Position numbers and translations under genes: made by a program
Assembly (NCBI GenBank): GCA_947626385.1
Contig: CANQSD010000003.1
Span: forward strand, 1 to 43,114
Reading direction: 5' to 3'
Length of the DNA stretch: 43,114 bases
Origin: an uncultured Oscillospiraceae bacterium
GTDB lineage: Bacteria > Bacillota > Clostridia > Oscillospirales > Oscillospiraceae
In this document: in pieces, positions 7,169 to 34,931 of the stretch
Layout: the number at the start of each line of letters is the position of its first letter
Numbering within the stretch: the stretch's first letter is position 1
The notes under the pieces: generated by a model
What the model saw: only the letters and a program-made list of their open reading frames with translations
What the model was told of the DNA's origin: nothing
Databases searched by the model: none

Positions 7169-7213
7169 GCTTTCGGGGGAATACCCGGAGGAAAAGCTGG
7201 ATATAATCAGTTC

Positions 7214-7498
7214 GTCGAAAAGCTCTCATCGAGCATTTTTTCCGGCGGCATGTACGTCGGAAAAAATACCCTTTGTCGCCCAAGTGTGCCGGGGTCCCCG
7301 GCGGGCCATGCCCGCTGGGGAGAGGACGAACCGAGCCAGCGTCTGAGCCCGACCGTCGGGAGGGCGAGGCAAAGCGGCTCGTGTGAGGACGAGCGTGCAG
7401 GGCGACAGCAGGGAAATTTCACGTGAATTCCGCAGAATTCACGGGGAATTTCCCGCACGTTCCCCTTTGTCGGAAAAGGCCAAAGGCCTTTTTCGACA
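7214..7498 (-). repeat. structured intergenic element, copy A (minus orientation)
   Basis: Reverse complement shares near-identical ends and covarying hairpins with 34629-34872; four ordered hairpins (7468-7498; 7411-7454; 7274-7281 pairing with 7400-7407; 7235-7267). Confidence 0.88.
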
Positions 7499-7545
7499 CA
7501 TAGTCAGGAAACGACCAAGTTTTAGCGCGTACAGGAGGTTTGACC

Positions 7546-32384: not shown

Positions 32385-34625
32385 GTGGGAAGGACGATCG
32401 CAAAGATCGCCGTGGCGGCGGCGATCCCCTCCATCGACAAGCCCTACGACTACGCGGTGCCACAGGCGCTGACGGAGAAATGCGTCCCCGGCGTGCGCTG
32501 TACCGTCCCCTTCGGACGGGGCAACAAGCGCTCCGAGGGCGTGGTCCTGGCGCTGGAGGAGGAGGGGGAACGGCGGGAGCTCAAATGTGTGGAGGGGGTC
32601 CTGGACGAGGAGCCCGTCTTCACGGAGGAGATGCTGAAGCTCGCCCTCTGGGTGCGGGACCGGTTCTTTTGCACCCTCTACGAGGCCGCCAGGGCCATGC
32701 TCCCGGCGGGGATGTGGTTCACCGATTCCGGCCGGCGGGTGGGGGACAAGGTGCAGAAATTCGCCGCCCTTGCCGTCTCCGGGGAGGAGGCGCTGGACGC
32801 CGCCGCCCACAAGCGGCTGCGCTCGCCCAGGCAGTCGGAGATCTTGGAGCTGCTGGCCGGCATCGGCGAAGCGCCGGTGTCCGACATCCTGGCCTTCACC
32901 GGGACCAACCAGTCCACCCTGAACGCCCTGGAAAAGCAGGGCTTTTTGGAGCTTTCCCTGCGGGAGGTCTACCGCCGGCCCGTCATTGCCGCCGGGGAGC
33001 GCGCCCCGGAGATCGTCCTCAACGACGAGCAGGAGAGGGCCTTTGAAGGGCTTCTGGCGCTTTTGCGAAAACGGCAGGCCGGGGCGGCGCTTCTTTACGG
33101 CGTCACGGGCTCGGGAAAGACCAGCATCTATATAAGGCTGGTGCGGGAGGCCCTTAAAATGGGCCGCACGGCCCTTGTGATGGTGCCGGAGATCGCCCTG
33201 ACGCCCCAGCTTCTCCACATCTTCTCCTCCCACTTCGGGGACGACATCGCCGTCCTCCACTCCTCCCTCACCGTGGGGGAGCGGTACGACGAGTGGAAGC
33301 GCATCCGCAAGGGGCAGGTGAAGGTGGTCATCGGCACCCGCTCGGCGGTGTTCGCGCCGCTCACGAATCTCGGGCTCGTCGTTATCGACGAGGAGCAGGA
33401 GCACACCTATAAATCCGAAAACGCCCCGCGCTATCACGCCAGGGACGTGGCCAAATACCGGTGCGTCAAAAATGACGCCCTTCTTGTCCTCGGCTCCGCC
33501 ACCCCCAGCGTGGAGAGTATGTACGCCGCAAAAACGGGAAAATACAGCCTCTTCACCCTTTCGGAACGCTACAACACCCAGCCTTTGCCGCGGGTGCTCT
33601 TCGCCGATATGCGCGAGGAGCTGAAAAGCGGCAGCGATACCGCCGTCAGCGGCGTTTTGCGGGAGGAGCTTTCCAAAAATCTCGCAAACGGGGAGCAGAG
33701 CATCCTCTTTTTGAACCGCCGGGGGGCGTCAAGCCTTGTCATGTGCGGAGAGTGCGGCTACACCTTTGAGTGCCGCAACTGCTCGGTGTCCATGACTTAC
33801 CACTCCGTGGGCCGGCGGCTCCGGTGCCACCACTGCGGCTGGTCCCAGCCGGTGCCGGAGGAGTGCCCCCAGTGCCACGGACGGCTGAAATTCGTGGGCG
33901 TGGGTACACAGAAGCTGGAGGAGGAGCTCAAGGAGCTCTTTCCCGGCGTGGGCATCGTCCGCATGGACACGGACACGGTCCAGCGCGCCGGGTCCCACCA
34001 GGCGCTGTTGAGCAAATTCCAGCAGGAGCGGGTGCCTATCTTGCTGGGGACCCAGATGGTCACCAAGGGGCTCGATTTTGCCAACGTCACCCTGGCGGCG
34101 GTGATCTCCGCTGACCAGTCCCTCTACGCCGGGGACTTCCGCGCCCACGAGCGCACCTTCTCCCTGATCACCCAGGTGGTGGGAAGGTCGGGAAGAGGCG
34201 AGAAGGAGGGCCGCGCCGTTTTGCAGACGCTGACGCCGGACAACCCGGTGCTTGTGATGGCCGCGCGGCAGGACTACATGGCCTTTTACGACCACGAGAT
34301 CCGCGCCAGGATGCTCATGAACGTCCCTCCGGCCTCCGACATGGTCACCGTCACCGTCACGGGGTTGCAGGAGGCGGAGGTCCTGCGGGGCTGTGTGCGG
34401 CTCTCCGAGGCCCTCAAGCGGGCCTTCGGGCCACACGCCGAGGTCCTGGGTCCCGCCCCGGCGGGCATCACCAAGGTCAACAACCGCTACCGCTACAAGC
34501 TGACCCTGGCCCTTCAAAACGACCACCGTGCCCGTGAGGTCATCCGCGCCCAGCTTCGCGCCTTCCGCGCCGACCGCGAAAGCCGAAACCTCACCGTCTA
34601 CGCCGACCCGGACCCGTTGGAGTGA
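32385..34625 (+). CDS. priA: primosomal protein N' (PriA helicase)
   Basis: YGVTGSGKTSIYIRL; VIDEEQEHTYKS; zinc cysteines CGECGYTFECRNC...CHHCGWSQPVPEECPQCHG; GTG start. Confidence 0.95.
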   Translation: MGRTIAKIAVAAAIPSIDKPYDYAVPQALTEKCVPGVRCTVPFGRGNKRSEGVVLALEEEGERRELKCVEGVLDEEPVFTEEMLKLALWVRDRFFCTLYEAARAMLPAGMWFTDSGRRVGDKVQKFAALAVSGEEALDAAAHKRLRSPRQSEILELLAGIGEAPVSDILAFTGTNQSTLNALEKQGFLELSLREVYRRPVIAAGERAPEIVLNDEQERAFEGLLALLRKRQAGAALLYGVTGSGKTSIYIRLVREALKMGRTALVMVPEIALTPQLLHIFSSHFGDDIAVLHSSLTVGERYDEWKRIRKGQVKVVIGTRSAVFAPLTNLGLVVIDEEQEHTYKSENAPRYHARDVAKYRCVKNDALLVLGSATPSVESMYAAKTGKYSLFTLSERYNTQPLPRVLFADMREELKSGSDTAVSGVLREELSKNLANGEQSILFLNRRGASSLVMCGECGYTFECRNCSVSMTYHSVGRRLRCHHCGWSQPVPEECPQCHGRLKFVGVGTQKLEEELKELFPGVGIVRMDTDTVQRAGSHQALLSKFQQERVPILLGTQMVTKGLDFANVTLAAVISADQSLYAGDFRAHERTFSLITQVVGRSGRGEKEGRAVLQTLTPDNPVLVMAARQDYMAFYDHEIRARMLMNVPPASDMVTVTVTGLQEAEVLRGCVRLSEALKRAFGPHAEVLGPAPAGITKVNNRYRYKLTLALQNDHRAREVIRAQLRAFRADRESRNLTVYADPDPLE

Positions 34626-34628
34626 ACC

Positions 34629-34872
34629 TGTCGAAAAAGGCCGTTGGCCTTTTCCGACAAAGGGGAACGTGCGGAAGATTCCGCGTGAATTTTGCGAAAT
34701 TCACGCAAAATCTTCCTGCCGTCACGGTTCGCGCACTGCGACTCGCCAAGAGCCGCCCTTCGGGCGGTTGCTCGCTTGCATGGCGCCTGCGGGCGCTCAT
34801 CGCTTCGCTCGCACACTCACCGTGACAAAAGGTATTTTTTCCGACGTACATGCCGCCGGAAAAAATGTTCGA
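34629..34872 (+). repeat. structured intergenic element, copy B (plus orientation)
   Basis: Starts 4 nt after the priA stop; four hairpins (34629-34659; 34673-34716; 34721-34728 pairing with 34819-34826; 34834-34866) in the same order as copy A. Confidence 0.88.
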
Positions 34873-34931
34873 TTTGAGGTTTTTTGGCAAGATACAAAAT
34901 GGCTGAGCTCTTGAGATAAAGGAGATTCGAT

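Follow-up and report, generated by a model that had tools for sequence, protein, structure and literature searches.

Copies of the element in the analyzed window

The window, that is, the whole stretch of 43,114 nucleotides analyzed here from an uncultured Oscillospiraceae bacterium, carries two copies of a structured element. Copy A is located between tig and clpP, with its folding strand co-directional with both genes, and copy B is located directly past a stop codon. Their features are as follows, with the sign giving the folding strand:

7207-7210, no strand: TCAG, left 4-bp direct repeat beside copy A (a single TCAG at the empty site)
7211-7503, +: copy A, whole inserted element, 293 bp (bounds from the empty site in L115, strand from G.U versus A.C counts)
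7235-7267, +: HP4 of copy A, the most conserved hairpin, loop GCATGTA
7274-7407, +: HP3 of copy A, outer helix 7274-7281 with 7400-7407
7291-7392, no strand: GC-rich module of ~100 nt within the HP3 tip, a separate repeat family (matches alone; missing from short copies)
7411-7454, +: HP2 of copy A, sequence variable, pairing kept (both-sided changes in 17/20 pairs in the family)
7468-7498, +: HP1 of copy A, hairpin beside the 3' end of the folding strand
7504-7507, no strand: TCAG, right 4-bp direct repeat beside copy A (a single TCAG at the empty site)
34629-34883, -: copy B, directly past the stop codon at 34624-34626 (the element is missing from relative L208)
34629-34659, -: HP1 of copy B
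34673-34716, -: HP2 of copy B
34721-34826, -: HP3 of copy B, outer helix 34721-34727 with 34820-34826
34834-34866, -: HP4 of copy B

In the original prediction, copy A was read on the minus strand. A check of the sequence placed both copies at the positions given there, with one difference each in the first 46 nt and the last 43 nt, and all four proposed helices (HP1, HP2, the outer helix of HP3, and HP4, as listed) are in place. The bounds predicted for copy A, 7214-7498, mark the right site but are too short, as the inserted DNA spans 7211-7503 with TCAG on each side.

The proposed comparison of occupied and empty tig-clpP gaps proved informative. The gap measures 377 bp here but 80 bp in L115, which is the closest relative (98% identity in tig); the rest is collinear, and L115 represents an exact empty site (GGATATAATCAGGAAACG) against which copy A is a clean 297-bp insertion; the element is absent from this site in all 29 other genomes compared. 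The 4-bp flanking repeat of copy A is non-palindromic and its terminal inverted repeats are degenerate; copy B likewise has degenerate ends, without a clear target duplication. A promoter and terminator scan at copy A found neither. The stretch GCTC-GATGA-GAGC-TTTT, previously taken for a terminator, is the sub-terminal part of the element end, and the scan found no terminator there.

Copy number in the host genome

Copy A gave 64 matches, partial ones, against the whole genome (2.29 Mb, 243 contigs). The HP4 core occurs 45 times exactly and seven times with one mismatch (~52 in total), whereas a reversed control pattern gave none, so the occurrence of the element is far above chance. The host genome holds ~50 copies of this gene-less element of ~200-300 bases; many of them measure ~190 nt and lack the GC-rich domain of ~100 nt in the tip of helix 3. 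Searches of Rfam at gathering and relaxed thresholds returned nothing over the element or its distant homologues. The expectation of further copies, with homologues in relatives, was thus borne out, and the element is, as originally described, dispersed, structured, and non-coding, with no named family in Rfam.

Ends, target hairpins, and empty sites

Intact copies carry 15-bp terminal inverted repeats, CAGYYTGTCRAAAAA at both ends; the original prediction saw no obvious long terminal inverted repeats, and those of copy A are degenerate. The flanks of intact copies hold near-identical terminator-like hairpins, the duplication measuring 20 bp at C195, 25 bp at C71, 28 bp at both C21 and C143, 31 bp at C2, and 33 bp at C73. 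When the joined flanks were compared with genomes G015 and G021, empty sites with one hairpin copy were found for C21, C70, C71, C73, C143, and C195. Since the orthologous empty sites hold exactly one hairpin, the second copy arrived with the insertion. At C57, a non-palindromic 10-bp repeat flanks the element and is present in a single copy at the empty site.

Flanking repeats were counted by an end-independent search, because a strict end pattern misses most copies. Across this genome and its relatives, direct repeats of at least 15 bp were present at 34 of 149 cores, compared with none of 149 when the flanks were mismatched; these 34 long repeats have a median length of 28 bp, 26 of them fold as hairpins, and the remaining 115 cores have no long flanking repeat. 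The element and the insertion sequence (IS) described below usually insert at terminator-like hairpins, with the whole hairpin doubled, mostly over 20-33 bp. The insertion, the ends, and the target are all well supported by these observations.

The IS1182-family partner

The partner IS was sought via PF13751 transposases across the genus. Three complete copies were found in sister species (L181, L182, and L187), 1496-1511 bp long with one ORF of 470-474 aa, and their ends, CAGTYTGTCAAAAAA (in L182, one end is CAGCTTGTCAAAAAA), are the same as those of the element. All three are flanked by palindromic hairpin duplications of 23-31 bp, that is, the partner IS displays the palindrome targeting reported for some IS1182 members. 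Its transposase belongs to the IS1182 family (NF033551, 385 bits, cut-off 270) and contains the Pfam domains PF13751, PF05598, and PF01609. The partner IS was found to contain none of the structured core's motifs. The element has terminal inverted repeats, target site duplication, and an autonomous partner with the same ends, as expected of a MITE, and from the shared ends and target behavior we infer that it is moved in trans by an IS1182-family transposase.

In the host genome itself, the partner IS is represented by a 3' remnant that carries the same end; the fragmented state of the assembly may explain the lack of complete copies. Another IS1182-type IS of this genome, with ends GGGGCTGTGAAAA, was considered as the partner and rejected, as its ends differ. 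This second IS (L110, L111, and L112) lies at contig ends and has a hairpin beside its end.

Conserved fold and folding strand

The fold was examined in an alignment of 28 copies, set in the orientation opposite to that of the original prediction. In the four-hairpin structure, 97.4% of cells are paired, both-sided changes occur in 33 of 63 pairs (shuffles, 16.2, SD 2.1; 0/500), and the covariation score is 0.314, compared with 0.02-0.10 for slid versions. The strand read previously is not the one that folds: on the opposite strand, 146 cells are G.U and nine are A.C, with the numbers swapped on the other. Three G.U pairs are near-invariant, and HP2, the sequence of which is not conserved, has the same bias (30 to 5). 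Among 74 distinct HP4 sequences from several families, 53 have G.U at pair 11 and 15 have A-U; the 7-nt loop of this hairpin is mostly RCAUGYR or GCGUGUA, and its end G...A exchanges for A...G.

These patterns indicate that the fold has been selected on one strand of a single-stranded nucleic acid, most likely RNA, with a fold of single-stranded DNA being possible. The element exhibits the covariation expected of a structured non-coding RNA; this signal is weakened by the exchange of hairpin modules between copies, owing to which the compensatory changes are not all independent. At the site after the L7/L12 gene (L038, L372, and L373), HP1, HP2, and HP3 are swapped for other self-complementary hairpins between species, as if by exchange among copies.

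Distribution and gene context

The proposed covariance model was built; of 247 genomes from the order, 24 yielded homologues, and these belong to four families (f1, f7, f13, and f19), while a search with this model in a class-wide sample gave no match outside the order. Distant members have in common HP4, HP3, and an upstream GCCTCGCAGAGTT-hairpin module. The copies in G220, which differ in sequence, have CAGTCTGTCAAAAAA-like ends and whole-hairpin duplications in nearly all cases, whereas those in G042 retain the core and such ends were not seen in them. Named records with the core pattern include rabbit-gut uncultured Oscillospiraceae, Dysosmobacter, Butyricicoccus, and a cultured isolate, Pseudoflavonifractor gallinarum DSM 107456, whose copy lies in L258. 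Plasmid and phage collections gave no match to the element. In G106 (L150:1293-1489), a distant homologue is preceded at 12 nt by the end of a 6S RNA gene (RF00013, 64 bits), and an ssnA RNA is located ~100 nt past the homologue.

Neighboring genes were called by a simple method based on codon usage. In 131 of 159 contexts, the gene at the HP1 end points to the element, which makes the folding strand antisense to this gene in most cases. The distance from HP1 to the stop codon is bimodal, 0-9 nt in 21 of 47 cases and mostly 24-64 nt in the others. Copies without ends or duplications show an orientation bias of 46 to 13 (p = 2e-5, relatedness ignored); for duplicated copies there is no such bias (10 to 6). 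Several copies lacking both ends and duplications are common to orthologous sites, e.g., C22 after rplL (L7/L12; gene named from sequence), and are therefore older. This distribution fits insertion either way round, followed by retention where HP1 follows a stop codon, the retained copies possibly serving as a 3'-end hairpin.

Proposed mechanism and alternative explanations

We consider it likely that these copies represent a non-autonomous, MITE-like element with a conserved strand-specific fold, mobilized by IS1182 into terminator hairpins. A mobile element and a structured RNA had been posed as alternatives in the original prediction; the evidence points to both together. An IS1182 transposase would act in trans on the ends common to the IS and the element and would recognize the terminator palindrome extruded as a stem-loop, with each strand nicked at opposite bases of the palindrome and the hairpin acting as the stagger. 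Repair would leave one hairpin copy on either side of the element, the host gene upstream would still be terminated, and the element would come to lie in an insulated spot between two terminators. Its interior would be kept independently of the ends, most likely as an RNA fold (a single-stranded DNA fold is possible), because homologues without these ends retain the core. For older copies that abut a stop codon, a role as 3'-end hairpins may have led to their retention. Several observations weigh against this account: copy A has a 4-bp non-palindromic repeat and degenerate ends, copy B shows no clear duplication, 115 of the 149 cores lack a long flanking repeat, and the exchange of hairpin modules makes some compensatory changes dependent on one another. 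In addition, the missing promoter at copy A and the mostly antisense position of the folding strand relative to the adjacent gene make it hard to see how an RNA would arise.

More tentatively, the element may be a mobile non-coding RNA, i.e., an order-wide structured RNA in Oscillospirales that functions as such, spreads by wearing IS1182 ends, and lodges between duplicated terminators. This is possible rather than probable.

An unlikely explanation is that the element is a host small RNA or 3'-UTR element, mainly vertically inherited and with a host function, in which case IS1182 mobility would be secondary hitch-hiking of some copies. It would account for the core kept in four families of the order, even without ends (G042), for the post-stop copies at shared orthologous sites such as that after rplL, for the start 0-9 nt past the stop codon in 21/47, and for the orientation bias of 46 to 13. 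However, the copies are many, their presence or absence often differs among close relatives, no promoter was found at copy A, and no conserved neighboring gene family was noticed.

We regard as very improbable an IS1272-like transposition that replaces a hairpin, with the flanking hairpins being tandem duplicates older than the insertion. IS1272 and TnSha1, staphylococcal members of the IS1182 family, target stem-loops and terminators rather than a sequence, without duplication; their target hairpin is reported to be lost or replaced, with a blunt cut in the case of IS1272 (PMC5678879; PMC4923244). The copies that abut stop codons without a duplication agree with such a process, but the orthologous empty sites have exactly one hairpin copy, which contradicts it at the duplicated loci. 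Hairpin replacement may hold for the copies without duplication.

The IS200/IS605 type offered as one option in the original prediction, in which single-strand transposition via end hairpins proceeds without inverted repeats or target duplication, can practically be dismissed despite the hairpins near both ends and the strand-specific fold, since intact copies have IS1182-type inverted terminal repeats and 20-33 bp duplications, empty sites hold a single target copy, and a DDE-type IS has identical ends and target behavior.

Comparison with known systems

Like bacterial MITEs, the element is short, has no transposase gene, shares its inverted ends with an IS, generates target duplications, and occurs in many intergenic copies. 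In ordinary MITEs, mainly the ends are conserved, whereas the interior of this element is a covarying, strand-specific four-hairpin fold kept across families. REP/BIME sequences are likewise palindromic repeats found past stop codons in many copies; the element differs from them in being larger, in its four hairpins, and in having ends common with a DDE transposon.

With IS1272 and TnSha1, the partner IS shares both the transposase family and the targeting of hairpins; unlike with IS1272, the whole hairpin is duplicated here. For ISPse1, also of the IS1182 family, the repeat is given as 4 bp (PMC3281130), which is similar to that at copy A. The BOX, RUP, and SPRITE repeats of Streptococcus pneumoniae are structured, interspersed, and intergenic, and some are transcribed (PMC3049150). 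Compared by description, the element resembles them in these three properties of structure, dispersal, and intergenic location; in contrast, terminator duplication is not reported for them in PMC3049150. IStrons combine a structured RNA and a DNA transposon as one mobile unit (PMC4227781), and to that extent the element, which joins an RNA-like fold and transposon ends, is comparable with them. It differs in having no group I intron match in Rfam, internal transposase, or evidence of splicing.

No description of this element was found in the literature searched. It represents an apparently undescribed family of non-autonomous elements with a conserved structure; some members are probably mobilized by an IS1182-family IS, with a whole-hairpin duplication that sets them apart from IS1272. 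For hairpin-targeting IS1182 transposition, this would mean a second, testable outcome, in which the terminator is duplicated rather than destroyed. If the terminator is duplicated in this way, an insertion would do almost no harm, which could account for the many copies found in gut Oscillospiraceae. Our analysis also exposes an undescribed multi-copy, structured-RNA-like family in common gut bacteria, one of them a cultured species, and the comparison of G.U with A.C cells tells which strand to seek in RNA-seq.

Other repeats and modules at element copies

The GC-rich domain that the original prediction placed within helix 3 is present in copy A, but it is a separate repeat missing from the ~190-nt copies. 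This module (positions 107-208 of the copy A query) matches alone at many places, is reversed in two element copies, and forms a repeat family of its own, noted in the window and in L047, L044, L045, L048, and L380. It also occurs twice at a spacing of ~292 nt, and an IS630-type miniature element contains a similar stretch. One IS630-type miniature element, with TACTAATATCTAATT... ends, is inserted inside HP4 of copy C11c (L026:140-310), and at L055:1-200 the 3' end of an IS630-like transposase gene is fused to the end of another element copy. The IS630-type sequences beside or inside C56 and C11c were considered as element ends and rejected, being later insertions. One copy (L062:1501-1650) has HP2 and the conserved linkers inverted relative to HP1, which suggests that hairpin modules can flip. 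Finally, a dispersed palindrome of ~60 nt centered on TGTTCCACGTGGAACA is often located just past the element end (L034:1497-1512, L035:1853-1868, L041:1615-1630, L048:2157-2172, and L383:1718-1733), and its sequence resembles a parS (ParB-binding) site.
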